Assembly: GCF_001625215.2 (NCBI RefSeq)
Contig: NC_030386.2
Span: 37,327,296 to 37,391,295, forward strand
Length of the DNA: 64,000 nt
Source of the DNA: Daucus carota subsp. sativus
Lineage: Eukaryota > Streptophyta > Magnoliopsida > Apiales > Apiaceae
Direction: 5' to 3'
A model generated the notes under the pieces. That model was not told where the DNA came from. It saw only the letters and a program-made list of their open reading frames with translations, and ran no database searches. The first letter of the stretch is position 1. Each line of letters opens with the position of its first letter. Both the position numbers and the translations under genes were made by a program. Shown here piece after piece: positions 12,168 through 64,000 of this stretch.

Positions 12168-12606
12168 CTAGCTTCTTAACCCATGCAAAGCATGGGTTGC
12201 TTTAAAGTATTCTTTTGAAATATTGTTATATCTTTTCTTCATTTTTTTTTGAAAATTGGGATTATTTGTATTATAAAAATAATTTAAATTTTATATATGC
12301 TTCTATTTTAAATCATATTATCTTGATGTCTAAATGTACATATATCCTCACTGTGATGATATTTATTAAAATATAAATATAAAAAACATATACACTATTT
12401 AAATTGTATTATATAATTATTGTATATTAATGCTTAGACATTAATGTATAATAAATACATTGCTTAGACATTAATGTATAATAAATACGTTAGTATTAAA
12501 AATCAATAATAACCTTTGTATATATTAAAATATGAGTAATAAAAAAAGGGTATATTAGTCATATTGAATTAATTTACTCAAGGTTGTTCTATTATATATA
12601 TAAAGA
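12168..12606 (-). mobile_element. Short non-autonomous Helitron
   Basis: On the minus strand the element starts TCTTTATATATATAATAGAAC (12606 downward), preceded by a host A. It ends with a perfect 9-bp-stem hairpin (AACCCATGC, loop TTT, GCATGGGTT, 12198-12178), then AAGAAG and CTAG (12171-12168) followed by a host T. A-TC...CTAG-T with a 3' hairpin is the Helitron signature. 439 bp, no coding. Confidence 0.65.
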
Positions 12607-18786: not shown

Positions 18787-21425
18787 TCAATATACTTATA
18801 TAAAGGAGAAGCGAGGGGCGTGTATGTGGCGCCTCTCCCATCGCTCCGTTCTATTTTTCTAATTTTTTGAAATTTTTGGATGAAAAATATCAAAAATTAG
18901 AACTACCTTTTTTAGTTTCGGGTATATTAGAAGCAAGTTTCAGAATTTAATTTTGTTTCAGATTATTTATGGAATATAATATTTTGAAAGTTCTAATCTG
19001 ATTTTGTTTCAGATTATTTAATTATGGGAAAGAGTAGCACACAAGTTTCTTTGCACCTATAAATACCCCTCTAGATCGTAGGGTTTTGGATCATCTAAAC
19101 ACAACCTCCTCTCTCTCAATGCCACAACTCCACCTCTCTCTGGTGATAGTTCTCTTGCTTGATTTCTAACTCAGTAGTGCCATTCTTCTGCAATGATAAG
19201 TGAAGACTGTTTATATAGTATTAAAAAAATAAAGGTTGTTACAAACAAGGCAGTTATAGATCGCTATGTGGGAGTCGACAAATTCAAACAGGGGAAAGAA
19301 TATAGTCTTGACATGATATTGATGGATGATATCCATAAATTAACTATTAGTGATGTATGTTTGTTGGTTATTCTTTTATAATAATATTTGTTTGTTAATC
19401 GGACATGTTTGTTGTTAATTTTTATATGATTTATTTTGTATACAGGAAAATATGGTCGAGAAGCGAGGGGCGTGTAGGTGGCGCCTCTCACATCGCTCCG
19501 TTCTATTTTTTTTAATTTTCTGGAATTTTTGGATGAAAAATATCAAAAATTAGAACTACTTTTTTTAGTTTCGGGTATATTAGAAGTAAATTTCAGAATC
19601 TGATTTTGTTTCAGATTGTGTACGGAATTCAGATTATTTAATTATGGGAAAGAGTAGCACACAAGTCTCTTTGTACTTATAAATACCCCTATAGATCGTA
19701 AGGTTTTGGGTCATTTATACACAACCTCCTATCTCTCAATACTACAACCTCACGGATTTAAGTTAGATATTTTTATGCACAATAAAGCCAAAAAAATTGG
19801 CGGAAGGTGGCAATGTAAGAACATGATTACTTTTCAAAAAAAAAAACACAAATAAAATTAAGATTCGTCGTGCTTTAAATTGTTAATTACATGTATAAAT
19901 TTATTTTCATTTTTTCACCATGAATTATAGTCCAATTTTGCAATTTTATATATTAATATTGGTGTTACATCAAAATTTTTATAATATAAAATTTATTTTA
20001 TCCTACAAATATTAATTTTAATACGTTAATATAATTCTTATAGACAGTCACAAAATTATTTTATGATACAAATATTAATATTGAGTCATTAATATAATTT
20101 TTACAGACCGCCGCAACGCGCAGAAGCGAGGGGCGTGTAGGTGGCGCCTCTCATAACGCTCCGTTCTATTTTTCTAATTTTCTGGAATTTTTGGAAGAAA
20201 AATATCAAAAATTAGAATTACCTATTTTAGTTTCGGGTATATTTGAAGCAAGTTTCAGAACCTGATTTTGTTTCAAATTATTAATGGAATATGGCAGCTT
20301 GAACGTTTTAATCTGTTTTTGTTTCAAATTATTTAATTATGGGAAAGACAAATTATTTATGGAATATAGTAGTTTGAAAATTTTAATCTGATTTTGTTTC
20401 AGATTATTTAATTATGTGAAAGAGTAACCCACAAGTCTCTCTGCACCTATAAATACCCCTATAGATTGTAGGGTTTAGATCATTAAACACAACCTCTTCT
20501 CTCTCATTACCACAAACCTACCTAGCAAAGGTAGTTAGTTATAATCTGATTCTTGAAAGTTTTAATATGATTTTGTTTCGAATTATTTAATTATGGAAAA
20601 GAGTTGCACACAAGTCTCTCTGCACCTATATAACTTTGTAGATTGTAGGGTTTTGGATCATCTAAACACAACCTCTTCTCTCTCAATACCACAAACCTAC
20701 CTCTCACCTTTGCAATCAAGGTAGTTATAGACCGTTATATTGGAGTCGACAAATCCAAATATGGGAAAAAAAATATAGTCTTGACATGATATTGATGGTT
20801 GATATCAATAACTTAACTATTAGTGATGTATGTTTGTTGGTTATTCTTTTATAATATTTGTTTTGTTCATCGGACATTTTTGTTGTTGTTAATTTTTATA
20901 TGATTTACTTTGTGTACAAGAAAAAATTATAGATGCATTATCTGTTTGCTCCGTTCAAGCAACTTTTAAGTAAAGGTTGTTTATACAGTATTAAAAAATA
21001 AAGGTTGTTACAAGTAAGGGTAGTTATAAACCGATATCTCACAGATATGAGTTAGATGTTTTTGTGCACAATCAATCCAAAAAAAATTGGAGGAAGGTGA
21101 CAATGTAAGAACATGATTACTTTTCAAAAAAAAAAAACCCAAAGAAAATGAAGATTCGTCATGCTTTAAATTGTCAATTACATGTATAAATTTATTTTCA
21201 TTTTTTCACTATAAATTATAGTCCAATTTTACAATTTTATATATTAGTATTGGTATTACATCAAGATTTTTATAATATAAATTTATTTTATCCTGCAAAG
21301 ATTAATTTTAAAACATTAATATACTTTTTATAGACAGCCACAAAATTATTTTATTATACAAATATTAATATTAAATCATTAATATAATTTTTGTAGGCCG
21401 CCGCAACGCGCGGCTTCTCAACTAG
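18787..21425 (+). mobile_element. Non-autonomous Helitron made of repeated head-to-tail units
   Basis: The 5' end TCAATATACTTATATAAAGG follows a host A (18786). The 3' end has a GC-rich hairpin (GCCGCCGCAACGCGCGGC, 21397-21414), then CTAG (21422-21425) and a host T. These are canonical Helitron termini. Inside, the head motif GAAGCGAGGGGCGTGT appears three times (about 18808, 19457, 20123). The tail hairpin core CCGCAACGCGC appears at about 20109 joined directly to a new head motif. A block beginning CAATGTAAGAACATGATTAC is present at about 19811 and 21102. The pattern is a concatemer of nearly full copies. A short open stretch (19193-19381, with KEYSLDMILMDD) faintly resembles an OB-fold of RPA1-type proteins; too weak to call. 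Confidence 0.75.
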
Positions 21426-27454: not shown

Positions 27455-27790
27455 TCTCAGCCAAACTTAAAATATAAATACTAATATAAATTAAACCCAC
27501 TTGAAACGGAAATATGAAAATCTGGTGATCAGCAAGACATTTTACATGGACGCAAATAGTAAGGTATCTACTCATGAAAAAGGCATAATCGTCATGGGAA
27601 AATAAAACTTGAATGTTGCTGACATTGACAATAAACTACTACAGCAGAACTAACTGTCATTCTGCACCACATGAGTGACAATTCAAGGGTATATCTTTCC
27701 TAAACCTGCTACTGTTTCGGCCTTTTAGCATTCAGCAACGCTATCCGTTCAAGTCTTCTTTTTCTTGTTCTTGGAGAAACCTTTACTACA
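27455..27790 (-). pseudogene. Duplicate fragment of the EBP2 3' end
   Basis: 27455-27790 matches 28617-28895 over most of its length. Examples are CCACTTGAAAC and GATCAGCAA..ACATTTTACATGGA in the 3'UTR, and the last coding stretch TTCTTGTTCTTGGAGAAACC, the reverse complement of the GFSKNKKQK codons. It contains only the last dozen or so codons plus 3'UTR, with small indels, so it is not a gene. Confidence 0.75.
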
Positions 27791-28455
27791 ATTTTTCCTG
27801 CAAGAACACGAAGACAAGATTAGAAACGGGCAATGTAATAGGGACCCTAGAAAATGGTTAAAGAGATGACAAAATGCTACAATTTTTGGAATATCAATAT
27901 TTTAAGACATTTGGATTTCTTCAATGTGCGTTGTTCTTTCATACAAAGATTATAAAAGTTCATAGTTCATACTGTCTTACAGATAAGGTCTGTTTCCATT
28001 CTCCCTCCCCCTCCCCTTTCCAAGTGTTTGGTTATCAAACAGCTAATATAATGGAGTAGCAAATGATTAAACAAAACCTTTTCCCGACGTAACTATGTCG
28101 TTATATTCTGCGCTGTGATTCATTGGCATATCTGCGTTATGTGTCAATGTAGGTTTAAAGGTTATTTACTTAGTTGCTAGGAAGGGTTAGCTACTTCAAA
28201 ATTGCAAAAAACAAAAAACAGGTGCAGCAGCAGATACAAAAATAATAAACAGTTTATCATTTCTCTCTTTTCTGTTTCCCTAAAAAATAGGTCCTTATGA
28301 AACATATAAGGTTAATGTGTCATGCCCAGAGAGACAAATACCAACCTCAGTCTCTCCGCTACTTTCTGGGGGAAACCAGTGCATGAGAACCCCCAAATGC
28401 ACCATAGCTGGGACCAATTTGAACACTACAGGAGCTGTTACCTGTAGCTCATCAA
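27790..28455 (-). pseudogene. Duplicate fragment of the KEA antiporter last exon and 3' flank
   Basis: 27790-28455 matches 39580-40390 at high identity, e.g. GGGCAATGTAATAGGGACCC and ACCAGTGCATGAGAACCCCC. Read on the minus strand, 28455-28317 repeats KEA exon 19 (VVFKLVPAMVHLGVLMHWF). A 170-bp segment present in the KEA locus (40089-40258) is absent here. No upstream exons are present, so it is a dead fragment about 11.9 kb from its source. Confidence 0.8.
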
Positions 28456-28854
28456 ATAAAAGATGTAAAACATGGACACTTATTTTAAACCAAAAACATG
28501 TAAAATTTTCAAATTATTGCCGAGTCCGACACTCCGACACGTATCCATGTTGGACACTTTTAGCCGAGTCCGGGCAACTTAGGGTAGAATACAACATATG
28601 GAACTTAAAAATTCATCTAGCTCAGCCAGAATTAAAATAGAACTATTATAAATTTGATCCACTTGAAACAGCGATATGAAAATCGGGGATCAGCAAAACA
28701 TTTTACATGGACAATTCAAATCATAAGGTTTCAACTTGTAAAAAGGCATAATATCATGGTAAAACAGAACTATAATGTTGCAGGTCTGACATTGACAAGA
28801 AAGCAGAACTAATTGTCATTCTACACCATATGAGTATTCAGCAATGCTATCCTT

Positions 28855-29875: not shown

Positions 29876-30028
29876 AAACCCTAGCCTATACATACAATAA
29901 ACGAAAAATAGATACACGCAAAGATATGAAAGCGAATTGGGGAATTACCTGGAAACAGAAGCGGAGGATTAATTGGTGCGGCAGAGAAGCTGCGTAATTA
30001 TATGATGAGCCTGCTTCATAAACCCTAG
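29876..30028 (-). promoter_or_regulatory. Telo-boxes upstream of EBP2
   Basis: AAACCCTAG occurs at 29876-29884 and 30020-30028. Telo-boxes (AAACCCTA core) mark promoters or leaders of plant ribosomal and nucleolar genes. The first lies inside the probable leader intron. Confidence 0.5.
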
Positions 30029-38369: not shown

Positions 38370-39579
38370 CTCTCTCTCGCTCGTTTTCTCTCTGTATTTT
38401 GCTTTTGGGGGGCAATGTAGCTGCTAGACTATAGGACTCTGTATATACTGGGAAATTTCCCAGGCCTTTTTTCTCCAAAAAATACTGTTATTCTGTATAA
38501 TAAATAATAAATAATAGTTTTTGGAAATATAATTATGTCTACATTTTTATTAAAAAAAATATTATTATAATAGTTTCAAAACAAATATTTTAACAATTGC
38601 AGTGTGAGGATTTTGAAACTGAAACACGTAATAACCGGTTTATTATTATCTAATTTAATTATGAGATAGAATTACACATTCTTATAAATATGGTGCTATA
38701 TCTATATTATAGTCCCAAAAGAAATTATATTCGATGACATTCATTTGATGATTTATAAAATATTATATTAAAAATAATACAATTATATAATCACTTTTAT
38801 ATTAAATAAATTAGAGTGAGAGGTTAGCGATAACATGGATACCAAAAAAGTTTTTTTTTATGATAGAATATAGTTGAATCTCTTTTAATTATAAATTGAA
38901 AAAATTATTTTTAACTTAACTAAATGTCACTTTTTAACAGAATTTGTAGTATAAATTAGAATAAAATAGTCAAATTTTAAACGAAACATATACTCTATAT
39001 TAACGTTAAAAATTATTATTTTAGAATTCAACACCAAAAATTACCTTTTAGTATTTAATACTAATATGTTGCAATTTACGGCATTCATTCTACAAGTCTA
39101 TAGTGTTGGCAGACAATAACACTAACCATCGAAAAAAACTGAAATGCATTCTGTATATCTCAAAACTTCTAAAAATCTACAATACATTGTCAACTAGAAA
39201 ATACACTCCCAATGAATGGCCATCCTCTTTATAAAGAAAACATACTATTGACATTTGGCTTTGAATTTTGATACTATTTTTTAATTTCAAAAACTATCCC
39301 TACACAATATAGTATGTGAGAGTGATGATGCCTATTTACAACTATCACAAGGACAATGGATAGATCTGTACACAATCTGAACCGAGCCAAGCTTTAGAGG
39401 TATGTCATGTCATATGTGTCTGGATGTTGCTGTTTGAGTAAAATGATACTCCGCAGTCTGCTTTCAAAATGGAGCTGTAGGTGTGAAATCCGACAACCTC
39501 ATCAATCAACATTATCATTTGTATAATTTGATATACAATTGTCACAACAATCTGTTATGTGCTTCAATTATTAAAACTT
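38370..39579. other. Intergenic AT-rich DNA between RAR1 and KEA 3' flank
   Basis: RAR1 leader and promoter, with CT-rich TCTCTCTCGCTCG just upstream of the start, then AT-rich spacer. No gene or repeat family is recognised. Confidence 0.35.
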
Positions 39580-40390
39580 TTTCCTGCAATAAAGAACATG
39601 AAGACAAGATTACGGAGACGGGCAATGTAATAGGGACCCTAGAAAATGGTTAAAGAGATGCAAAATGCTATACTTCTTGGAATATCAATATATTAAGACA
39701 TTTGGATTTCTTCAATATGCATTGTTCTCTAGTACAAAGATCATAACAGTTCATAGTTCATACTATCTTCCAGCTCCCTCCCCCATCCCTTTCCTAATGT
39801 TTGGTTATCAAACAGCTAATATAATGCAGTAGCAAATGATGAAACAAAACCTTTTTCCGTCATAGCTATGTCGTATTTTTTGCTTTGTGATTCGTTGGCA
39901 TATTTGCCATCAGTGCCAATGTAGGTTTAAAGGTTATTTACTGAGTTGCTAGGAAGGGTTAGCTACTTCAAAATTGCAAAAAACAAAAAACAGGTGCAGC
40001 AGCAGATACAAAAATAATAAACAGTTTATCATTTCTCTCTTTTCTGTTTCCCTCAAAAATAGGTCCGTATGAAACATATAAGGTTAATTATGATTTCTAT
40101 ACTCTTGTAGTCCATCCTGTCAGCTAACAAACATAGAAAAACATAGACCATAAAATAATTAAAGTAATCTACATTTTTACTTTCAATTAAAACAATAGTG
40201 GCAGCGCAGAACTTGCAAGTATAAAGGAGAAAGTAATATATGAAGTGCAACTGTTCATGTGTCATGCCCAGAGAGACAAATACCAACCTCAGTCTCTCCG
40301 CTACTTTCTGGGGGAAACCAGTGCATGAGAACCCCCAAATGCACCATAGCTGGGACCAATTTAAACACTACAGGAGTTGTTACCTGGAGC
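39580..40390. repeat. Source copy of the KEA 3' segment duplicated at 27790-28455
   Basis: Covers KEA exon 19 and about 680 bp of downstream flank. It matches the second copy in order and orientation, apart from the 170 bp at 40089-40258 present only here. Confidence 0.75.
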
Positions 40391-42099
40391 TCATCAAATA
40401 GAAATGTCAGTACTCATACATAACAACATTCATCAATAAATTATGTCGGAAACCCAAAAAAAAATAAAATTTTGTGGTTATATACTACCTATGACCGATA
40501 TCTCTTGCTATCAGCTAATAGATTTCTATAAGGAGAGATTCTTCTGTTCTCTTGACAGTGTTGTGTGTGTCTGTGTTTTGGTTTTGGGGGGTGGATGGAG
40601 GAAGAACAGCATTCTCAGATTAGCAACTTAAATGATCCACATAAACTTACCAGACTAAGGGCTGTTGTTCCAAGTAGAAGGAGGTACATTTTCCCCTAAA
40701 TGATTGAAGAAAACATAGTTAGATTGACTAAAAGCTCTTCCAGTGAATAATTATTGATATTAAATATTAATCATTTTTCACTTAACCACTTAACCAACAA
40801 CTCTAATCACTTTTGTGCTTGTGCAAACTTCAGTACACGCGCGCGCGGCACGCATACACACACACACACATACACATATATATATATATATTGGCATAAC
40901 TGGCATGAATAATGTACAAATATCTAAGAAGTTGACATGTGTGTGTGTGTAGAGAGAGAGAAACAGAACCTCGATAATTCCGAGATTTGAGGCACGACTC
41001 AAAAGAACAAAAGCGAATTCTCCAATTTGAGCAAGCATCACCCCAACCTGCAATACATTTAAAGAAAAGAAAACTTTGGTTATACTTGTTCTGGCATTGC
41101 GATGGAAACTTTAACCAGTGTGCTTACAAGAAAGGAAGTCCTGGTGCCATATCTAAAGGCCTTTGTGATCATAGCAGCAACAGTAGTCTTCACAATTATA
41201 ACCAAAATTACGGATGCTAGCAATATATCCACATGAGTCCACAAGAACTGCACATGTATGAGCATTCCAATACTAGAAAGGAAGAGAGCAGCAAATAAGT
41301 TTCGAATTGGCTCCACCTATAACATTGAATAAGACATGTTAAAAACTTTTGCTAGGCTGCAGATCAGAAAGCTACAAGTACAAGCAATATATCAAACTTT
41401 TTCAGTTATATGAACTTCAAACTGACTTTAAAAGTGTTTGCATTTGTTTGTTGTCCTTTTAGTTGCATATTTTATATCTTGACAATTTTTGGTAATCAGA
41501 ACCCAACAGTTTATATAAAATATCATGTGCTGCGATGTGAGCCTCTTCTACTCGTCTCCTCCACTGAATATATAATATGCCAGAGGTCACAGAAAGTGCA
41601 AATCTCAGACAGCAAGGAGAAAAGTGGTTTTCGCATTTATGCCTGTTGCCAAATAATTTGTTGACCGAAAGAGAATAATGAACAAATCCATTATTTCCCT
41701 TTATAAAAATTTATCAAAATCCATTATTTCCCTTTATAAAAATTTATCAAGTTACAACATCAAACATCACTACAACAGACGAATACTTTCTTACTTTTGT
41801 TATATATAGGATAATTAGTAAAAAATGCTAAGCATAAATTTTCTCAGAACTTTAAATACCCTTTATAAAAGAGTATAATATCCTTCATAGACTGTAGCAA
41901 GTCATTTGATTTACACAGAACACTAAATATAGTAGTAAAAAGCATGGAATGTTCATCCGATACTCCACTATCAGTCTAGAAATATGTACTATATCCATAA
42001 GATATGCAGAGGCAGCATATTTTCACAATAATGTTAAACAACTTGATAGATTACATATCAGACATGTGGGTGCAGATAATATGTATACATATTTTCTGT

Positions 42100-51077: not shown

Positions 51078-51707
51078 TGCGCAATTCCAGAGCTATCAAA
51101 CGCGATATTTTCGCAATTGAATCAAATCAAATCAAATCGCAGGATGTGTATGCGTGTATGTGAATCTATTTTCTGCTGTCACGAAAAGCGTTGCGTAGAT
51201 CGAAAGGAGAGGGAAAGGTTTGTTAGCTTTGTCAAATTGTTCAGGCGGGATTTGTAGTGATTATTATTAATAGATTAATTAAATATTTATAAAGGTTACA
51301 TAAATTAATGCAGCTCCTGTGTACATACATTAGATAAACGTTGGGAGCTCCAGAGCATTCATAACTTTACTCTTCTGGGACGTGTTTCAGTTCCACTTAA
51401 ATGACGCCACGCAAGCATACGATGGAACGTAACAACGAAACAAGTACAGAGCTGGACAGCTGGTGTAAAATAATCCTGTGTAATTCGTGTTCCAGAAAAA
51501 GATAAATTGTTTTGATTTTATGCAAACACAAAATTTTGAAGTGAATTATTATAAAATTGACGTGGAATACTTAAAGTATCTCCAGCAGAGTCCTAACGTG
51601 TTTCCTGAATATATAATAAAATATTCAATTTTTAAGGGATTATTACATTTTATTGAATGGGAACTCCAACAACATTCCCTGTTTCTATTCCTGTTATTAT
51701 TATAATA
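51078..51707 (-). promoter_or_regulatory. KEA upstream region
   Basis: About 190 bp of probable leader, then AT-rich DNA up to the Helitron end at 51708. No ORF of note; no specific element is claimed. Confidence 0.35.
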
Positions 51708-51735
51708 CTAGCCTATAACCCGTGCAAAGCACGGG
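51708..51735 (-). other. Helitron 3' terminus (hairpin and CTAG)
   Basis: Reading the minus strand: hairpin CCCGTGC TTT GCACGGG, spacer TTATAGG, then CTAG and host T (complement of the A at 51707). Directly visible; the Helitron reading follows the known CTRR rule. Confidence 0.75.
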
Positions 51736-52563
51736 CGACCAATTTTATTTTTATAATTAGTTATAAGTTTTAAATCATTGTATTAGTATTTTATTATTAA
51801 TGTAATAATTTAGAATGAAAGATCCTATAAATCATATTAAATAAATTGACATGAATGTAAGCAGAAGTGAAGCTTAGAAGTGAAGTTGAATTGAATTGTA
51901 ATGGTCAGGAAACAATTTGCTCATCATTCTTATCATAGTTACTTGTGTGTCATTGATTTTTGTTATGGAAATCCCTCCTACCCATCAAATTGTTAACATT
52001 GAAGACAAAAATGAAAATGTTTGGAATGTATTTTAATATTCTGATAGAATATAGTTTAATATATTATTTTAATTTTTTGTAAGTTGAATAAAGTTTTGAA
52101 CCTTGATATTAAAGAAGAAATCAAAAAGAAATTTTGAAAGTATACTTTATATCCACTTTACAATGCGTGACAGACAGTAGTAAATGATTATTATTTTTTT
52201 CTTAAATCAATTTTCCAATTTTGAAGGTCAAAAAACCGAAAACCATAACCCTGCCATTGAGTTTAATGATGAGCATGTTGAAGGGTGTGAGAACATGATC
52301 AATATCAATCTGAAGGGCTCGAGTGTTCTAGGAAGATGTTATATTGATTTTACGCCAGCACATATTACAGCTACAGGACTTGTTCCAAAATCTGTAAGAT
52401 GAGAAGATATATCCATAGCTGCACAGAAGTATCAAAAGGAAAGAAAAGTGATCATAAGAACTTGAGTTCTACGTGGTGTAGCGCAGTTTTCATTACAACA
52501 TTTTTTGTATGAATCACTCTGTTTAGTATAGAGTATGGTACTGCATATATGGTAATAGGCTGC

Positions 52564-52735
52564 AGGTTTTATGCAATCATCGCTTCAACTTTGGCAACAG
52601 GCTTTGTGGTTGGAGATGAAGGTGGCTGGAAAACCAATTTCGATTACAAAACATGGGCCGCTGGCAAGTGAAGGCAGAAAGTGGTACTCCTGCACCAGCA
52701 CCTGAAGTTTCTGCCGCTACTGGCTTCGGCTAGTG
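52564..52735 (+). pseudogene. Captured phytocyanin (blue copper protein) fragment
   Basis: One reading gives FYAIIASTLATGFVVGDEGG followed by WKTNFDYKTWAAGK, the signal peptide end and start of a plastocyanin-like domain (normally VVGDxxGW...YxxWAxGKxF). It then jumps to AESGTPAPAPEVSAATGFG and a stop, the Pro/Ala tail of such proteins. The whole copper-binding middle is absent, so two distant parts of one gene are joined. Opposite in sense to the Helitron. Just upstream (52184-52402) is an unrecognised 72-codon open stretch. Confidence 0.6.
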
Positions 52736-53062
52736 AAACTTCTCTTGCATAAGCCTTTGAATCTTAAAGCTATAGTAGAGGTAAAATCCAAAAATCCTCT
52801 CACAATATTTTACTACACAATTACAAGTCCCAGAGAGCCAAAACTTATATACTAATGAATGAAATCAAACATAGTTCTGATTGAAATGAAACAACCATAG
52901 CATATAATAACAATAAATCAAAGGATGAGCTGGATATTATTAAATAAACCAATATATAAAACTGGATAACTCCACTAAAACGACTCTTACCAATAACAAT
53001 AATTTTAAGTGTCTAAATCACTTGCATTATAAGTCTTACATAGAAAAGGAGTAAAAATAAAT

Positions 53063-54234
53063 TTAAAATAGATCTAGATAGAAGTCAATGGATGGTGTAA
53101 GATAAGCCGAAAGACATCCCATGAGTAGAGCAACTTTACACTGAAGACATGTAAAATCATCCATCTGATCTGGGTGCACGGGGTATCCATCTGGTGTATA
53201 ATGATTGTCCTCATTTGAAAATTGAGCATTGCAGATAGGGGATCCACTTAAATTGTCGAATATTGTATCCGGATATATGTGTCCGCCGATCTTTTTCAAA
53301 GCCAGTATCATGCCACTAATTTGTGGCCGTGTCGTTGGCGTAGTGATCATTTGGGCTATAGCAGTTACCGCGTGTCTCCTTTTTTTTGGGAAGAAATATA
53401 TATCCATCATGTTTTTGAATAGAGAGGAGAGCATGTGACCTCTGGTAGATAGATCTTGGATAATTTTGTATGATATGTCTAGAATATCATAACAAACGTG
53501 ATTTCTCAGGACCACACTTTTGCATACCCAGTAGAATTCTGCATCGTGATTGCCCAGGCGTTGTGCCATTGTCATAAAGTATGTAAACATGCTTTCATCA
53601 GGTCTGTTTATAACGTGTCCCCAATGATATAATTCATGTATGGGAATTTGTTCCAGTAAAGCTCTAACAGTTGCGTCATTCTGATATTTTATCCAAAAAA
53701 TTAGGAAATTGAAGAAGGGCTTAAACCTTTCAGTTGATGTCTTCATGAGTATAAGAGCAACGGTTCTTAACGGGATGTCATGTATTAAGTCAGTGGCTGA
53801 GTATCGAATAAAGTTCCAATTTTTGCATGTGGCACGCAAGCGAACTCTTTCTTGATAGTTCAGCCTGTCTATTACCAACCTCAATAAGTCTGCTGGGAGA
53901 TGGTTCCAGTACCTGAAATCAGCTTTGCGGGCAGCAATTGTTGTCTCTTTTTTGGCTTTGATGTTTGGAGCATGTGACTTCACTGTTGCAGTAGTTTTTG
54001 TACGATGCAATTGATAATCTCCACTTGTCTGTAATTCATATTGAAAAGTTTTCTTTTGTGAAAGACATCACAGATTAATCTGAAATTATTGATTGGGTAA
54101 ATATAAAAATATTTGTGTAGAGGTCTGACCTTAACATTATAGAGTTGCAGAGCATTAACATTTGACGCATCTTGTTTCATGGTTTCCCGAGATATTCCAG
54201 AGAGTTCATAATTGTCTGACCTTGGACGTTTCAT
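53063..54234 (-). CDS. F-box protein carried inside the Helitron
   Basis: Two exons: 54234-54130 and 54028-53063; 1071 nt, 356 aa, uninterrupted. Start MKRPRSDNYELSGISRETMK; donor AAG|GTCAGA and acceptor TTACAG fit. After a basic stretch (NIKAKKETTIAARKADFR) comes an F-box, YWNHLPADLLRLVIDRLNY then RVRLRATCKNW. The long C-terminal part (PIHELYHWGHVINRPD, AQRLGNHDAEFYWVCKSVVL) recalls the At1g67623/At2g35280-like F-box group, in which helical repeats follow the F-box. A Cys cluster FTCLQCKVALLMGC lies near the end. F-box proteins are SCF substrate adaptors, but the target is unknown. It may be a captured host gene or a gene maintained by the element; its intact frame argues for recent activity or selection. 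Confidence 0.75.
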
Positions 54235-55304
54235 GTTTATGTGTTTGTTTGGAGATCTGTATCAGGAGTTGTTATGTATTTGTGTATTTGTATGCTTGTG
54301 TTTTTTGGTTGATCAGAGTTTACATTGAGTTTATATTGAAATCATGTATTAGATATTTAGTTGGATTAGAATTTTGATCGTTGCATACCACCTGATTCAT
54401 TGTACACTTAGAAGTTCTGTATTTTTAATTTGTTTATAAATATAAATTTTAAAATATTAATATGTTTTCAAATTTAATAATTTATGTTTGTAAGTATATT
54501 CTGAATTTATATTTATAGCTCTTAAGTTTTATTTTTATTTAAGAAGATATGTTTTTGGTTTAGAATGGATGAGCATTACTGTGAATATATTTTGGTAGAA
54601 TTTACATTTTTTTTAAGTATTTGGCTGCAGAGAGCTGAATCTTGCGTGTTTTGGTACTGAAATAGCAATTGAGTTACAGTTCAGTGTTTCAGAAGCATCT
54701 TCAAGGGGAATAATGTTCTTTTATAGTTGGTGCTGCAGTTTGGCCTCACTTCTTGGCATGATAGAGTAGCACTACAAGGATTCCTTGTAGCTCCATGTAA
54801 CTTGAATGTGTCAGAGTCCTAGACCTCGATCGATTCTTCGAAAGAGTTTACAACAGAATTCCATAGCTATCTACCAAACATGATAGTGCTCAAGTGTTAT
54901 TTTCACTGGAGTAGTTGAAATTTTTGTCAGAGGATATAATACAGAGGCTCAGAGAACTGCTCAGAGAATTTTATTTTAAACATGGACGTTATTTGGTGTC
55001 TCATTTGACGTCCTAAATAAAAAAATTTAGGACAAGGATTAAAAAAATTTATATAATTCGTAATTTATTATTTATATTTTAAAGGTTACATCATGTAATT
55101 AATATGTTAACAGTAATTAATTGAATTTTAATTAAATTCTATTAACCAACAGATTATACTTAGATTTTATAATTTATTATGTATTTATAAATATTTTTTA
55201 GTTTATTTGTGTATTATATATTAAATTAAGAAATTAATAGTATTTTTCATTATAAAAGTCAAGTGTTTTTTGATAATAATAATAATTTTACAACGCGCTC
55301 TATA
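54235..55304. other. Helitron interior, no gene seen
   Basis: AT-rich. A segment at 54620-54990 is less AT-rich and could be captured DNA, but no protein or repeat was recognised. Confidence 0.3.
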
Positions 55305-56522
55305 AGACTTTTTTTAAACATCTCACAACTTTCTATCTGTTGGTATCAATAAAAATGATCTACGATTAGCAAGAATCACATATAATGCCAGCTCAATGTG
55401 TATAAACAGATGCAAATATGATTAATGGAAATAAAATTGTAAAGTTAACATTTTGATAAGAGGTGCTTATACATGAGAGTCGCAGAGGAAATATTATATA
55501 AGCAGAAGTGATATTTTTTTTATGGTAGGGGAGCTTAGAAAGCTTCAGAGCCTGCTGCTATGGCAAAACAATATAGTTGGCACAATCCCTTTTGGGCTCG
55601 GAAGCTGCACTCAGCTAACAGTTATTGATATCTCTGAAAATCTTTTGACAGGCAGCATTCCTACAAGGTTTAGAGCCTTATCAGGACTTCAAGAACTTCA
55701 GCTGAGTGTCAATCAGTTATCAGGTATCATACCAACTGAGATCATAAATTGCACAGCTCTTACTCATGTGGAAATTGATAACAATAATATTTCTGGGGAA
55801 ATTCCTTCTCTAATAGGCAAACTAAAGAGCATGACTCTTTTCTTTGCCTGGCAGAATAAGCTAACAGGCAATATTCCAGAGTCATTGTCCGAGTGTGAGA
55901 ATCTCGAAGCTCTTGATCTTTCTTATAACCATCTTTTTGGTCCTATACCAAGACAAATATTTGATCTAAAAAATATTTCCAAACTGTTGCTCATTTCCAA
56001 TGATTTATTGGGTTTTGTACCACCTGAGATTGGAAATTGCTCAAACTTGTACAGGTTTCGGGTAAGTGACAACAGATTGGCAGGTACTATTCCACCTGAA
56101 ATTGGAAATTTGAAAAGTCTCAATTTTCTTGACATGTGTAACAATAGAATTGTTGGTGGAATTCCTGCATCAATATCTGGCTGTAAAAATGTTGAGTTTC
56201 TTGATCTTCATTCCAATGCACTTACTGGTTCTCTACCTGATAGGCTTCCGAAAAGCTTACAACTTCTAGACATCTCAGACAACATGCTTACAGGTCCATT
56301 AGCTCCAAGTCTTGGTTCTTTGACTGAACTAACAAAGCTTAATCTTCGGAAGAATCAACTTTCTGGCAGGATTCCTGCACAGATCCTATACTGCAGTAAG
56401 CTTCAGTTGTTAGATCTTGGAAGCAACGGCTTTTCAGGGGAAATACCCAAAGAATTGGGTCAGATTCAGTCACTTGAGATCTCTCTCAATCTAAAAAGTT
56501 GTGAGATGTTTAAAAAAAGTCT
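55305..56522. repeat. 28-bp perfect inverted repeat bracketing the LRR fragment
   Basis: The left arm at 55305-55332 opens AGACTTTTTTTAAACATC; its exact reverse complement is at 56495-56522 and closes TTTAAAAAAAGTCT. The right arm begins within two or three bases of the end of the LRR homology. The bases outside the arms do not form an obvious target duplication, so it is unclear whether this is a TIR transposon (Pack-TIR type) or a by-product of the capture. Confidence 0.8.
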
Positions 56523-56538
56523 GAGAACATATACTTAA
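55522..56538 (+). pseudogene. Captured LRR receptor-like kinase fragment (RGI/SKM2 type), open reading frame
   Basis: 338 codons stay open; about 322 are LRR. Plant-type repeats of about 24 residues (LxxLxLxxNxLxGxIPxxI) run from GELRKLQSLLLWQNNIVGTI to LLDLGSNGFSGEIPKELGQI and SLEISLNL. Blocks such as LFFAWQNKLTGNIPESLSEC and LHSNALTGSLPDRLPKSLQL are typical of the RGI3/At4g26540 group of LRR-XI receptor kinases, which perceive root meristem peptides. Signal peptide, N-terminal repeats, transmembrane segment and kinase are absent. At its 3' side the LRR homology stops at the inverted-repeat arm and continues as unrelated KSCEMFKKSLRTYT to a stop. Opposite in sense to the Helitron. The intact frame suggests recent capture. 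If transcribed it could yield an LRR-only piece, but no start or signal peptide of its own is evident beyond a chance ATG. Confidence 0.8.
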
Positions 56539-57333
56539 ATGGATTGAAAATGGGATGTCATACATGCTGTTGCGAAACAAAGGCTGCATATACATTCACG
56601 GGAAGTCGGTAAATCAAATTGTTTCACAATATATAGTGTTACAGTTTTTCCTGAATTGTGAAATATATCAGCCTCAGTTCTGATAATTTCTTCCCAGGAC
56701 AACATATGTGGCGTGGCCTCTCATTAACATACATAAGTCTATCTGGTTTGTTTTAAGCAAATGAAGTATACGGAAACACAAAACAAACCATAGTCGTAGA
56801 TAACCTTGTAAAGAAAATGGCAATTCCAATGAAGTAAAAAAAATTAGCAGCTGGGAGTGCAACCATGTTATATAAAAAATCCATTTGAAAGATGCTGATG
56901 AATGAAAACAAAAAGAAAACATATTGCAAAACTGCTAAAACCTAATGGACAAAATTAAACATAGTATTGAGAAGTCGTTTCAGAAACCAACAATTCAAGT
57001 TTCAACCGGATAATCATGAAGAAGAAGCTAAATAACGGATGCACACACCTGAAATATACCTGCAACAGGCCATCAAGTGCTCTGGCATCAAGTGGTTTGT
57101 TAGATATAAGTCGAAGAAGAAAACAATAAAGCATCTATTTATCAGATAATACCAAAGTTAAATTTCATAAAACAATAAAAGGAAGTCTTACAAAAAAGTA
57201 AAAAGAACCGGAATGTTACTAAAAAGCAATTCTCATGAGATATCTTTGTAAAATAAAGAAGGTAATACCCCTAGCCAATTAAAGGCTCTACTGATACTAC
57301 TGTTACCAATAATAATAATAATATTATGCAAGC
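56523..57333. other. Helitron interior between LRR fragment and RPA1-like gene
   Basis: AT-rich, no gene. Probably includes the 3' flank of the RPA1-like gene. Confidence 0.3.
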
Positions 57334-59489
57334 TTAGGTATTTGTACGCTTAAGACTTTTGTTTCCAGGGCTTCCCTTTGTACCTGAATTTGGTGGTGGA
57401 ACCTGACCTCCATTTTTTGCATGTCTCTGAGCATCATGACCTTGTTCTACTTCTAAAGAGCCCTTTGATGTATTTTCTGGAGGAGGTTGTACTTGGTCTG
57501 AATATTTGTCATCATTTGGTTTTTTTCTCTTTTTCTGCAGATGATGTTCAGACGGTTCCGTGCTTTCGTGGTCCAAGTCATGTTCCGAGCTATCTTCACC
57601 GGAATCAATTTTAGAATTGGAAGTTGGTTTGTTGCTTTTCACGTCATCTACCTCCATCACCGTGAAGCCTTCTTTATGCTGAACTGTATTGTATTGATTC
57701 AGTTTGAGCCTAAATATGCAAGTCCTGCCGACCATATTATTTAAAATTGGTGGCATCATTTCTGGTGTTGCGTTCTGTTGCAGGGAAACCAACACATGTA
57801 ATAATTGTAAAGTGTAATGCAATTATATTAAGTCAAGCATTTGTATCATGTTGGAAAGGTGAATACCTGGTCACTGTTGAGTAGATGCTGTGCTGAGACC
57901 TTTATTAGTTTCATTACATGTCTATCAAATATGACAAAGGACGTATCGGCAGTTGAATCCTTGACTGCCAGCGTTACTTTATATATTGGTATTGGTTTTG
58001 TTTTATGAGAACATTTGATGCATTGCCCGAAGTCATTCATTTTTTTCCCACACTTGTTGCAGCCAATATAATACCAGCCTTCGTTCGGAAATAAACCAAT
58101 CACAGTTGCTTCGGAGTAAAATTCAATAAACTGCATAGTAATTTAATAGCAGACAAGGTGTATTATGGAAAAATTAGGTTTCTGTTGTAATCTGCATTAT
58201 AAGTGACTAAATTATGTTGTTTATTTCTTACATTTTTTCCATCCGGGAGTTGTGCCTCAAATAGTTGTGCTATTGTCACAGTTTCAATATTAGCCATATT
58301 TTGTTGCTCCTGGCTCTTCATAGATGGCACAAGTGTTGGGATTATACTATTTTCCAACTTAGTACTCTCACGCAGTGTTGTGACGGCCGAGTGGTCGATA
58401 TTGAAAAAGTATTGTGTTGAACTACTTGACCACAGCACAAATTCCCCTGCAAAGTTGTAAGATCACATTGATTAAGAAAGATTATATGAGTCATGATTAG
58501 TATAAGGTTGAAAATAATTGAATGCATACCTTTCACAAGTCTTGTGGAAGTACCAGTTATGATTACAATGACATTTGCCCGGGTGTACTCATTTTCAAGC
58601 TTTAGGAATTCAAATGCCTGATTCTCCCACAATGTGACCTTTATCTCATCTCTGAATGAAAGAGAGTAATATCCAAGGGTTGAAAAAGTAAAGCATAACT
58701 ATGTAATTTAAAGCAATGCTTATTTTTTGGTAAGAGATTATTGTAATTGTGTAACAGAAGCGCACCTTTTGTCTGCAAGGACAATATCTAATGACTTTTT
58801 TCCGCTTTTGGCAGTTTGTATATGAGTATAATCTTTCAACTTTCCCACGACATCTAAAAAATAATCTCTGTGCATTAGTATTATAGAGAAGTAAATGCTG
58901 GTTGAGTAGTTGGCTATATCAAAGTATGAAAAAAGCTGGTAGTTGTAATGGATGGATAAGTTATTACCTATAAGAGTCACAACATCTCCAAGTCTTGCCT
59001 TGGTTTCTTCGAAAGTCTTCAAATTAAATTGGAACATAGGGATAGCGGGCACATCACCAATTTTCTTGACAGAGGTCTTTCTATGAAAATTGACAGTGTA
59101 CTCTCCCGGCACAGGTCTGTACGTGTCGGGTGCAGCAGCTACATCGTAGTTTGAAATCAAGTATACACTTCCAAGTAGGAGCCTTTTAGAGAACTCTGCT
59201 ATTAAACCAAATTGCAGGGGTCCAGCCTGGACTTGGGTCCCCTGTACAGTTTGTTTGTTGTATTAAAAAGTTTTCGAAGTCAATTTTCTATATTGTTGGG
59301 GAGAAGAAACACACACACATATATGTAATAATCAACAAAGCATACCTCTTCATCAATAATGATATAGGTTTTGGTTGTGGCATGTGTTGCTCCTGGTTTT
59401 CTCCCTTCCCATTCCCTTGAAATCCGAACTTTGATGAAGCCTGTTCCCCTTCCCAGAGTTAAATCTTTCAATAATGTGTATGTCTCCAT
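57334..59489 (-). CDS. RPA1-like single-strand DNA-binding protein of a Helitron
   Basis: Seven exons: 59489-59346, 59241-58968, 58853-58766, 58651-58530, 58446-58232, 58130-57867, 57774-57334; 1548 nt, 515 aa, uninterrupted with agreeing phases. Start METYTLLKDLTLGRG. OB-fold 1 (FIKVRISREWEGRK, TYIIIDEEGTQVQ, VYLISNYDV), OB-fold 2 (DVVGKLKDY, SLDIVLADKRDEIKVTLWE), and OB-fold 3 with a zinc knuckle C-x2-C-x9-C-x2-C in YIGCNKCGKKMNDFGQCIKC. The tail is acidic then Lys-rich (SGEDSSEHDLDHES, KKRKKPNDD). This is the RPA70 DBD-A/B/C arrangement. Helitron RPA1-like proteins are thought to coat the single-stranded transposition intermediate. It is intact although the neighbouring RepHel is dead, so it may have been exapted, may act in trans, or may simply not yet have decayed. 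Confidence 0.85.
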
Positions 59490-61256
59490 GAATATGCTAT
59501 CGTTCGGGGATTTTGCTTGCTGAGTGATGGTTTTGTTTATAGAGTTGGAAGAATCCGTGCAGAAGTGAATTTATATACGTTGATAGTTGTAGTGAAAGAG
59601 AGATTTGATAATGATACGATTCTATCCTTTTGATTTTTAGTTAAATTATAATTTTGAGTAGTATAATTCTATTTGACTTGTAATATGATAGAAGTTGTGA
59701 AATATTATAATTAATTTCATGTTTTTTTATAATAATACATATAGATAGATATTAATAATATTATAAGAAAATAAAAAAAATAATTATATGTTTTTTAGAA
59801 AAGCAAATGTATAATAGATAATTCTATGTTTTTTTATAAAAACATATTCATATTAATATAGAAAAAGCATATAGAAATAGATAATAATTTTTTTTTATCA
59901 TTTATACTAACAATTTATAAAATATATAATATCATAAAAGCTAAATTTGAAGGAAAATAATTAAGTAGGTTAATATAATTTAATCAAAATTCAATTTATT
60001 AGGATTTAATTATAATTTAATTTTATTTGATGAATTTGACTTATATTAAAACTATCAGGATTATAACTTTGATTATAATTCTATTTAATGAATTTGAGTT
60101 TTAGTTGAAGTATAAATTTGGAACATATTAGAAAATTAAAGTAAAATTAAATTTTAAAGATATTAGGATTATAACTTTAATTATTTATTAATGTCGATAT
60201 TTTACTTCTTGTTGAAGAAGAAATTGTTATTTTTGACATTTTTGTTAAAGTTATAAAAAGTTATATGAAGTTTCTTGTTAAAAAAAGATATTTAAAATTA
60301 TATATTTAAAGGTTAATTTTTAATTTTAAGATTTAAAATTAAGAACTGGATTTTTGTCGGTGATTGGTTTGGAATTGGTGGTCAAATTTTCAAACAAAAG
60401 TCGAATGGGTGAGGTAGTCTGTTTTTAGTGTTATGTAATTTAATTAATATAAAATATGTAAGGTTTTGTGATTGGAAAGGTAATTAAAAAAAAAACTTAG
60501 GAAAGTCTAACATCCGAACAATGAAAATCACAGTTCACATCACTTGGACAGTGTTGGAACATGATGTCCCCAGGGCCAAATCTCTGACGCACGGCTCACA
60601 GCCTCGTTCATAATGCCATTATCCACAGTGCCATTAAAGTGTTCAACATTGTCATGCTCTAGAGTTGAGGTCATAAATTAACATCTACTATAACAATACA
60701 CCTGTTGCTTAAAACTGTCTTACATCTCCATAACAGTTCTTAGATTACTGAAGTCCACGGGTATTAGTCCAGTGAGATTGTTTTCCCCAAATTCCTATTG
60801 TGCTGCTGGTGCATGAGCAAGTGCTATTCCTATACCACACTTCTTCAGAAAAGGGGTATCATTGACACAATCTCTAGTCGCATCCCACAAATATGGTTCT
60901 TCTCCTGTAACTTATATACTATTTCATTGGTCACACTCAAAAAAGAATATAAGAATAGCTAGACCAGATGAAATAACAATACGAACCAACCCTCAACAGC
61001 TGCAGTACTCCATTAGTCCTCCAAAACAACAAAGAAAGAAAAAAAAAAAACAAAGACTGTATGTATTGTAGAAATCATAGGCTATCTTGAAGTTATTTCA
61101 ACTACTGGTGTAAAAGAATCCAACTGATATATATAATAATCTAATAATCTGATATTTGTAGTAGTCCTAATATTAATTCACATGAGTAGATAATATTAGC
61201 AAGACGTAATAATGAATCCGGGCAATCCCCAAGAAAATCAAGTTAATTTGTTTACA
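59490..61256. other. Helitron interior, AT-rich, with a possible gene scrap
   Basis: 59600-60480 is AT-rich and empty. At 60540-60900 on the minus strand scattered readings such as NNLTGLIPVDFSNLRT look like another LRR scrap, but they are short and broken; not called as a feature of its own. Confidence 0.3.
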
Positions 61257-61837
61257 TCATCCCAAGTTGGCAAAAACCTCATGGTAAACAACATTTTTTG
61301 TCATGCCAACAATTGGGTGGGTTTCATTTTCGCACACTATATGCAACCCCAATGGTGTTGTTACTCTCGATATCGCCACATAGAACTGTCCATGGCTGAA
61401 AACCGGTCTTGGCAAATATAAGCCAACATATTTTAGTGTTTGTCCTTGGCTTTTGTTTATCGTCATTGCATAACAGAGGGATACGGGAAATTGAACTCTT
61501 TTCAGTGTAAAAGGCAGTGTTGTGTCTGACGGCCTCATACAAATTCGTGGGATGAAAGCCTTCTCACCAATATGATTTCCGGTAACTATGACAGCTTCTA
61601 TAACTCGGGCACATAACTGAGTGACAATCAACCGTGTTCCGTTGCACAATCCCTTGCTAGGAGCCAAATTCCTTAACAGAACAATTGGAGCTCCAATTTT
61701 GAGCTCGAGTTGATGATTTGGTACTCCTGCAATTCTTAAAGAATTCAAATATTCTGGTGTGTACATGCTTTCCATTGATTCATAGTTAACTGTGCTTTTA
61801 CAAACTGAATCCACACTTCGATATATTTTGGACTGGC
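61257..61837 (-). pseudogene. Helitron helicase C-terminal exon (PIF1-like)
   Basis: The exon starts at acceptor TTTGCAG (61838) and reads QSKIYRSVDSVCKSTVN, then APIVLLRNLAPSKGLCNGTR. It continues with the PIF1-type motif V-VI region AMTINKSQGQTLKYVGLYLP and FYVAISRVTTPLGLHI, and ends at VFANLG. This is the last exon of plant RepHel genes. Walker A/B motifs and the Rep nuclease should lie upstream, but the next coding sequence upstream (62041-62318) is the far N-terminal region, only about 200 bp away. So roughly 1000 codons have been lost and the gene cannot make an active RepHel. Confidence 0.88.
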
Positions 61838-63028
61838 CTGCAAACAATTGAATTGAAGTTAAATTATAGTAGTCTAATATATATATGGAATAGCAGTGAA
61901 CAAAAATTTGAACAAACAAAAGGAATAATATAGAAAACTGGAACCACAGAGCAAGCCATGTTATGAATAAAGCTCTAAACTGGTTTTTTTAATAAAAAAA
62001 AATTTGACTCCAGGGCATTTTTGCTGGTACAACTCTAAGCTTATCTCAAAACATTTGACCCGAATGCGTTGTTGTACATCCGGATGTTATTTTGGAATAT
62101 AGTTCTTTTAGGATTACTCCGATCTAGTAATGTTTTCATCTCAAAGGGAGTCTCTCGTAATAGTGGCAAGCGTACCTTTCCATTGCCACAACACAAAGAA
62201 AACTTATCTGATTTCAACTGGCATTCCTTCTCTGTTTGCTCAAACCTCCACATCAAAGCCCCACAGTGACAACAGATTTTATCGGCACATCCTATATCAA
62301 GTATTGAATTGCTCGATGCTGCATTTATAAATATATTAAAATCAAAAACATGTTTGATGAACGTGTGAATTTATTGCATTTTTGAAACATGCCATAAGCA
62401 TTCTATTATATTAGAAATTAGTTAATGCTCAAATTTAAGATTACCGAATTTTTCCTTGTTTAATTTTATCTTGCTCCTCATCCTTTTACTCAATGTCGGT
62501 AAAGCTGCAATAAAATAGATATGCATCAAAAAACAAAAATTGCCGCATAATTATCATTTAAATATTAAGATTGCACAAACTACCTGCAAACTTTTCAGGA
62601 GTCCTGACAATTACTTTAGAAGCATCACATTTCATATTTTGTTCTTCATTTTCTGCATAGTTTATTAATGCTTGCATAAGAGCAATTTTCAAGATAATGA
62701 CATATGTTAACTAAAGAAATTTCAAGTAAACATTTCGATCATCAAAACTACTTGCTTGACATATAATATAACCTGAAGTGAAAAAGGAAAACAGAATTAT
62801 ACCATTGCGATACACCTGTTGTCGTTTGTTCCTACGTTCTTCTCTTTTCTCGGCATCACCTATATATTGCAATTGTAAAATCATTATCATGTTAGATAAT
62901 TTACATTTTTACTTACAAAACATCAATTACTCAACAATTACACGAAATTTATATTTTCTATAAACAAACAAATGTTCTAACAAAACATAACAACATGCAT
63001 TGCACCCTAAAACCCTCACAAATAAAGG

Positions 63029-63247
63029 TACTCCCTCCGTCTCAATTTATAGGTCCAGTTTGGAAAAAAAATTGTCCCAAAATACTTGTCCCTATCTTTT
63101 TTCAATACAAATTTATCTACATATTAATTGTGATTTTTTTGAAACTCAACATTATTCTCATTTCTCAATGCACTAAATCCCTATATTTATTGTGATTTTT
63201 TTGAAACTCAACTATAAATGGACCTATAAATTGAGACGGAGGGAGTA
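63029..63247. mobile_element. Stowaway-type MITE with TA target duplication
   Basis: Ends CTCCCTCCGTCTCAATTTAT and, in mirror, ATAAATTGAGACGGAGGGAG, flanked by TA on each side (63029-63030 and 63246-63247). Body 215 bp. The CTCCCTCCGT terminus and TA duplication define the Stowaway (Tc1/mariner) class. The arms match over about 28 bp with little or no change. It abuts the donor of the exon at 63360-63249. Confidence 0.92.
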
Positions 63248-63930
63248 CCATTTTGGTATCGTGAACGCCTTTTCTTCTTCTTCACTTCCAATCGCTTCTG
63301 GTTGAGGTGATCATGTTTCTCCTTAGCTTCTAACTCAATCTTTTTCAAAGTGGCCTCTTTCTAATCATAATGTAAAATTAAAAGGTCAGCATAATAGTAA
63401 GGAAAAAATTTCATGATTTAAGATTAAGGTACAGAGTATTTTATACCTGTGCTTTGTATCTGGCCCTTCGTTTCTGGTTGAGTTGATCCCGTTTCTCCCT
63501 AGCTTCAAAGTCCATATTCAAACCATCCTTTTTGCAAGCCTCTTTCTAATTATAATATAAAATCAAAAGGTTATCATCACGTAAAGGCAAAAATGTTAAT
63601 GTTTTAAGATGAAGGAACACAATATTTCATACTTGTGCTTTGTATTTCTCCCTTCGTTTGTTGTTGCGTTCATCCCGTTTCTCCCTAGCTTCAGCCTCAA
63701 TCTTTCTTAAAGCCTCAGAGTTTGACAAACTTGTGTCCAAATTCAAATCGTTTTCGGCAGCCTTTTTCTAATTATAATATAAAATCAAAAGGTTAGCATC
63801 ATGTAAAGGCAAAAATGCTCATCTTCTAAGATGAAGGAACAAAACATTTAATACTTGTCCTCTGTATCTTGCCCTTGGATTCTGGGTGTGCTGGTCCAGT
63901 TTCTTGCAAATTTCAAACTTATAGAAGTAT
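63247..63930 (-). repeat. Tandem array of exon-intron units coding a basic coiled-coil repeat
   Basis: Four units with donors at 63249, 63447, 63633 and 63855 (spacing 198, 186, 222 bp). Both the exon (ending RRxxYKAQ in the clearest units) and the intron with its TATAATTAG acceptor are repeated, so whole exon-intron units were duplicated. Confidence 0.75.
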
Positions 63931-64000
63931 TGGTTTTATAATTAAGATATATTTTTGATTTTACCTTTTATCAATACAAATTTTACACTTACATTTATTC

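Follow-up and report, generated by a model that had tools for sequence, protein, structure and literature searches.

Helitrons are transposons in which a RepHel protein nicks and unwinds DNA and an RPA-like (replication protein A-like) protein covers the single strands. The present analysis concerns a Helitron copy in a 64,000-nt stretch of the carrot genome (Daucus carota subsp. sativus, C6:37327296-37391295, hereafter the window; the genome comprises 441,086,747 bases in 11 contigs), which carries an open F-box gene and an open RPA1-like gene together with the remains of RepHel. In the accessible part of an earlier account, RPA, OTU protease and AP endonuclease are named as added Helitron domains and the capture of full-length host genes is described as exceptionally rare (PMC6431247). 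No description of an F-box gene as a regular Helitron gene was found in the literature examined, which comprised accessible parts of papers and had Repbase and subscription papers outside the search; the F-box genes of nematodes and zebrafish are the subject of one such paper, as far as its accessible text goes (PMC12062965).

We consider it very probable (roughly 0.8) that the window copy, here called A, is a dead, internally deleted and 5'-truncated Helitron, that RepHel, RPA1-like and F-box genes follow one another in this sequence in fuller members of its family, and that the F-box gene is a standing third gene. Directly observed are the order of the genes in the sister copies, the filler-bearing deletion, the lack of a family 5' tip over 23.5 kb, the open accessory genes of A, and constraint on all three genes at the level of the family. 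Between 51708 and 64000 the minus strand holds the Helitron 3' end, the F-box gene, the RPA1-like gene, the last RepHel exon and the RepHel N-terminal region, as follows (B to F are sister copies located below):

51708..51735, minus strand: Helitron 3' terminus, with a hairpin at 51735-51719, CTAG at 51711-51708 and a flanking T at 51707 (sequence, folding)
53063..54028, minus strand: F-box gene exon 2, with the F-box domain and a C-terminal domain (Pfam; whole or broken in six other loci)
54130..54234, minus strand: first exon of the F-box gene, 35 codons, with splice sites predicted from the reading frame (aligns with C, E and F, poorly with B; separated by an insertion in D)
57334..59489, minus strand: RPA1-like gene, seven exons, 515 aa, open (Pfam and PDB match; B, C and D retain its frame and splice sites)
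61257..61837, minus strand: last RepHel exon, 193 codons, with the Pif1 2B region and the helicase C-terminal part (Pfam Pif1_2B, 9.2e-23)
62044..62058, minus strand: deletion join, at which ~15 nt of filler replaces 5,867 bp of sister B (alignment of A and B)
62059..64000, continuing to 65375 outside the window, minus strand: RepHel N-terminal region, with repeated basic exons and a zinc-finger-like exon (sequence, alignment)

A first-pass annotation, made from the window sequence alone, had reported the 3' end, the RPA1-like and F-box genes and the reduced RepHel, and all of these hold with the lengths given there.

In a search of the carrot genome with the RPA DNA seven places matched; at six the match covered most of the query, with 79-100 % identity. 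The F-box DNA gave 31 matches, of which six were full or nearly full and lay in the same six loci, with a seventh on C2. RPA and F-box genes are thus linked, whole or broken, in A and at five other places: B (C1:38.28M), C (C7:22.6M), D (C7:18.9M), E (C7:15.08M) and F (C7:11.85M). The C2 locus, G (C2:52.76M), consists of F-box remains with both ends and is 7,458 bp long. From alignment and ends, the order RepHel, RPA, F-box, 3' end is seen in A, B and D, and likewise in F for the surviving part of RepHel; in copies C and E the order of the genes is preserved, though sizeable stretches have been inserted or lost. B is 21,616 bp long, with an A nucleotide before its initial TC and a T after its final CTAG, and D measures 26,021 bp (C7:18936981-18963001). 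The first-pass annotation had allowed that the F-box and RepHel/RPA parts might stem from separate elements; as the accessory genes recur together and in the same order at five further loci, they belong to one Helitron.

The 3' terminus of A has the form typical of the superfamily: a hairpin precedes a CTRR end, and a T follows at the insertion site. The 43-nt end folds into a single 7-bp hairpin (z-score -3.2; 2 of 200 shuffles were equally or more stable) and is almost identical in B, D, F and G. The corresponding end in copy C is a 79 % match lying 17 kb past the F-box gene, and none was found in E when the ends of the sister loci were compared. In D and G the CTAG is directly adjoined by the remainder of another family tip (oriented positions 30024 in D and 15600 in G), and these copies seem either to have landed in the 5' tip of a different copy or to be arranged end to end.

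RepHel was compared over 1,428 codons downstream of its more N-terminal exons, with exon borders inferred from frames. B is open over all of these codons and D over all except the last, and the ratio of nonsynonymous to synonymous divergence (omega) between them is 0.115. The Rep motifs of B read GLPHAHIIVW and KYMFKYVNKG, and its domain matches are Helitron_like_N at 2.5e-48 and PIF1 at 5.4e-89. Over the same codons copy C contains three stops and an insertion of 16 nt, and E and F are partial. A retains 282 of the 1,428 codons. The part lost comprises the entire Helitron_like_N domain, the HUH and tyrosine motifs and the helicase Walker motifs; no match to the Rep domain (HUH motif, two tyrosines) was found in A, and only the last exon of the PIF1-type helicase is present. 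RepHel is therefore, as had been proposed, reduced to its N-terminal region and the last helicase exon (61837-61257), which lies ~200 bp from the break at ~62058. The ~15 nt at the join were not found in B, and A and B also differ by 269 bp nearer the last exon. The join was found in none of the five sisters, B-E keeping sequence there and F lacking the left side. Since the loss of RepHel is absent from B-E, it arose on A's own line, which answers in part the earlier question whether it is recent.

Two loci show other rearrangements of RepHel. The end of the Helitron_like_N exon occurs four times in copy C at a spacing of ~2.45 kb (C7:22653000-22661000); three of these match 0.5 kb of B at 95 % identity, and the fourth belongs to the full exon. 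A deletion derivative at C8:1609275-1617489 has RepHel N-terminal parts and the HUH exon and, 58 bp on, A's 3' 453 bp at 96 % identity; the genome-wide RPA DNA, F-box DNA and F-box protein searches gave no RPA or F-box match there. Judged by sequence, its deletion is partly complementary to that of A.

At the 5' end, B has the TC of the superfamily inserted after A, and tips with TCTATACTATACTATAAAAAGCC or TCTATACTATACTATAATAAGCC are present in B, D and G, those of C, E and F being outside the sequence examined or not found. No such end was recognised in A: the family tip was found nowhere in the 23.5 kb upstream on either strand at up to 11 mismatches of 34, nor by blastn. A 5' end was also looked for between 51708 and 57000 and none was found, in keeping with the large element first proposed. 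The stretch between tip and RepHel is poorly conserved, the 2.7 kb of B having failed to align with D past the tip, so that the tip itself was in effect all that was searchable in A. Homology to the family extends in A 1.4 kb past the window, to position 65375, and ends there; the next 748 bp are another repeat, which matches five other loci (three wholly, two partly), all ending at the same base. A complete Helitron with its 5' end further to the right was rejected because of the lack of a family tip in 23.5 kb and the different repeat adjoining. With no family tip, A is filed as a truncated copy and not as a complete Helitron; adding the internal deletion with filler in RepHel, a copy that is 5'-truncated as well as gutted would very probably be immobile. 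The earlier picture of a mobile element whose accessory genes outlived its motor could thus not be upheld.

The RPA1-like gene of A has 1548 nt including the stop, with GT/AG introns, and lies downstream of RepHel as in plant Helitrons. Its product matches Pfam Rep_fac-A_C (3.1e-12) and DUF223 (1.6e-7) and RPA70 chains in PDB (8.5e-7). In A, B, C and D no stop occurs over the 513-515 codons compared and the splice sites are kept, while the gene is truncated in E and a pseudogene in F. Omega is 0.21 for A-D (synonymous divergence, dS, 0.55), 0.33 for A-B and 0.42 for A-C. With C as outgroup, A's own branch has 8 synonymous changes against 12 nonsynonymous ones, and 3 are undecided; with C and D the respective figures are 5, 8 and 14.

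The F-box gene of A encodes 356 aa in an open frame, with a Pfam F-box match of 7e-8 and 32.5 bits against a cut-off of 20.5; the scores in B and E are 35.2 and 26.7 bits. Its C-terminal domain may resemble that of the At1g67623/At2g35280-like F-box family. An AlphaFold model made without alignment had a predicted local distance difference test score (pLDDT) of 39.7, too low for use, and no relatives of the protein were found in viral contigs. Exon 2 (318 codons) is open in A, B, D and E, and its omega ranges from 0.21 to 0.82 across 21 pairs. Values for codons 1-36, the linker, are 0.64-1.31 in five pairs. The F-box domain gives 0.19-0.57 in five pairs, and 0.19-0.22 in the deep pairs A-B, A-D and C-D; the rest of the protein gives 0.20-0.31 in the same deep pairs, and 0.43 (A-E) and 0.88 (B-D) in close pairs, with few changes behind both. 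A pattern of this kind suggests a gene without the look of chance capture, kept working by selection at the family level. A's own branch has 13 synonymous and 14 nonsynonymous changes with B and D as outgroups (19 undecided). Per site, calculated by hand, the branch values are ~0.4 for RPA and ~0.3 for F-box, and since the branch includes time before the deletion they do not demonstrate selection on A after RepHel was lost. The question raised in the first-pass annotation, whether the accessory genes are under selection, can accordingly be answered in part, for the family, in which omega indicates selection on both.

The association of such F-box genes with RepHel was assessed across the genome. 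A search with the F-box protein gave 51 matches, merged by hand to 41 loci (10 rows were dropped as second pieces), and 12 of the 41, including G, were labelled fragments and retained in the count. RepHel places were taken from PF14214, for which 150 of 168 matches were listed and 150 of 344 candidates scored, so that the linkage is a lower bound. At least 14 of the 41 F-box loci lay within 30 kb of a listed RepHel, where ~0.9 were expected, and all 14 lay downstream of it. Eight of these, at 35 % identity or more, were on the same strand as RepHel, and six, at 21-29 %, on the opposite strand. A random place falls within 30 kb of a listed RepHel with a frequency of 2.1 %, which gives a binomial P of 6.7e-14; without fragments and with four C5 copies counted once the figures are 11 of 26 and 2.0e-12, and both P values overstate, the copies being related. 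Guessed lengths were used for C3, C4 and C9 in the random placing (too short for C3 and C4), with little effect, as 150 x 60 kb in 441 Mb amounts to 2.0 %. As a control, the best 150 of 1306 generic F-box candidates included one within 30 kb of a listed RepHel, namely family member D.

All nine loci matching over 200 aa at more than 50 % identity carry other Helitron evidence. The same gene order and strand recur at C1:23.14-23.16M in a second family, which shares 71 % identity with B along 869 bp of a RepHel exon (RepHel at C1:23144719, RPA at C1:23154312 and F-box at C1:23156602, all on the plus strand). Two F-box relatives on C8 (53 % and 60 % identity, with stops or frame breaks) end ~420-430 bp before a Helitron-like hairpin end. 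The matches of the 21-29 % group start after the F-box motif; one of them, C4:15445801-15446500, read in part, is open and by eye like the C-terminal domain.

Several observations weigh against a standing third gene. No listed RepHel lies within 30 kb of 27 of the 41 F-box loci; of the 27, 11 are short pieces, and further signs of a Helitron accompany seven (A, C, F, G, C1:23.157M and two on C8). At 21-29 % identity six loci are near a listed RepHel and six (23-29 %) are not, and the four C5 copies may stem from a single recent duplication. For exon 2 as a whole, the close pairs A-E and B-D have omega of 0.57 and 0.82, so little constraint is visible in recent divergence. The gene is frameshifted or stopped in F and G and has lost its last codons in C, and is thus not needed by every copy. 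Moreover, the modules differ in age. The synonymous distance between B and D is 0.55 for RPA, 0.11 for RepHel and 0.07 for F-box, and for A and E the distance is small in F-box (0.10) and large in RPA (0.54). The copies are therefore mosaics and pairwise omega mixes their histories; on these distances, modules seem to have been exchanged among copies, which one tree cannot describe.

Part of this evidence would fit a host gene that Helitrons have spread and multiplied and that is selected for the host and not for the element, as the six relatives of 23-29 % identity without a listed RepHel within 30 kb could be host genes. We regard this as unlikely: the close relatives sit inside Helitron copies, several of them broken, and the genome protein search gave no strongly similar long match outside Helitron loci.

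Gene-fragment capture by Helitrons is frequent, and the F-box gene could be a host gene of ordinary kind that was captured a single time and now drifts, as does the leucine-rich repeat (LRR) fragment described below. The close-pair omega values and the broken genes of F, G and C agree with this, and an F-box gene fragment is tabulated in 221 rice Helitrons in the accessible part of PMC2575219 (Table 2). Such a history is nevertheless a little less likely still, given that omega in the deep pairs is 0.19-0.31 in the F-box and C-terminal domains against 0.64-1.31 in the linker, that the gene recurs with RepHel in several families and lies downstream in all 14 loci near a listed one, that Helitron evidence accompanies every long match above 50 % identity, and that the LRR fragment, by contrast, has 98 % identical sequence elsewhere.

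It is most improbable that A works as a non-autonomous element, mobilised in trans by the RepHel of its intact sisters and providing them in exchange with RPA and F-box proteins, for although its 3' end is nearly that of B and D, sisters with open RepHel exist, its own RPA and F-box genes are open and the C8 derivative has a partly complementary deletion, A has no family tip within the 23.5 kb searched, its break adjoins another repeat that ends at the same base in five other loci, and its join is in none of the five sisters, the only copies compared. Five short F-box 3' pieces (C8:12.106M, C1:34.517M, C9:40.465M, C3:46.132M and C5:40.831M) are followed on the same strand, after 1.7-2.4 kb, by sequence matching the family 3' end, as would plausibly be expected of derivatives moved in trans. 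The suggestion of movement in trans is thus plausible for short derivatives that keep the 3' end, and hardly so for A.

Two further features of A are missing from sister copies:

55528..56512, plus strand: LRR receptor gene fragment, 985 bp as against 37 bp in sister B (Pfam, alignment)
63024..63252, no strand assigned: short inverted-repeat element, like a miniature inverted-repeat transposable element (MITE), within the RepHel N-terminal region, missing from B and C (alignment)

The LRR fragment lies on the strand opposite to the Helitron genes, has a 31-nt inverted repeat with arms at 55305-55335 and 56492-56522, and is 98 % identical to sequence at C5:11000811-11001775. It had at first been grouped with the F-box gene as one part of the element; being host-like, absent from B and nearly identical to the C5 sequence, it was rejected as a component of the family. 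A short LRR-like peptide, NNLTGLIPVDFSNLRTVMEM, is encoded on the minus strand at 60700-60850, where B aligns to part of the region only; this is possibly a second captured LRR gene fragment.

Elsewhere in the window a second Helitron-like 3' end is found at 12171 on the minus strand, with an 8-bp hairpin (ACCCATGC, 3 nt, GCATGGGT) and CTAGT. Local repeats of 82-90 % identity cluster at 18806-21411, and 27783-28466 and 39568-40407 form a direct duplication of 0.5-0.7 kb, ~12 kb apart.

Returning to a dead Helitron from a family with three genes, we envisage that a once complete element was broken by double-strand-break repair, which would account for the filler at the RepHel join and for the host LRR fragment inserted elsewhere, and that the accessory genes may still be open because the breakage was recent. 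The F-box product most likely joins an SCF (Skp1-cullin-F-box) ubiquitin ligase via its F-box, and the C-terminal domain would then bind the target, which might be a protein of transposition or a host factor for silencing or repair. We propose that the F-box gene is a standing third gene of such Helitrons, acting as an SCF adaptor, and not a passing capture. A broader version, to which we give distinctly less than even odds, is that it is a third core Helitron gene in this plant, of an age that lets it span several RepHel families and two orientations, and directs SCF against a host factor that limits rolling-circle transposition. If the gene is conserved, a rolling-circle transposon would use the protein-degradation machinery of its host, and control of Helitron activity could be tested via one protein and its partner. 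A single element also contrasts a passing capture, the LRR fragment with its 98 % match elsewhere, with a gene kept by selection, the F-box gene.

The loss of the motor is ordinary breakage with precedent, and the gutted copy is itself ordinary. The precedent is the rice DHH_Mothra mother element, which like A is a plant Helitron with an RPA gene and without RepHel, and whose sister family has both, as far as the accessible part of the paper goes (PMC4683698). The same text describes a mother element with both termini and a large non-autonomous progeny, whereas A has no 5' tip, and the term 'F-box' has 0 occurrences in the paper (PMC4683698). The wheat elements Xuan-Feng / Feng8 have HUH and two tyrosines four residues apart, a spacing that matches the motifs of B, and they comprise autonomous and non-autonomous members as in the carrot family, according to the accessible text (PMC13286980); 'F-box' occurs 0 times in the main text of that paper. 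The F-box sequence of 221 rice Helitrons is, in the accessible part of its description, a captured fragment in non-autonomous elements (PMC2575219), whereas the carrot F-box is an open gene beside RepHel. With the plant Helitrons that encode RepHel and RPA1-like proteins, as described in the accessible part of PMC6431247, the carrot family shares the CTAG end and hairpin, the HUH Rep, the PIF1-type helicase, the RPA1-like gene and, in B, the TC end. Unlike them, it adds an F-box gene between the RPA gene and the 3' end.

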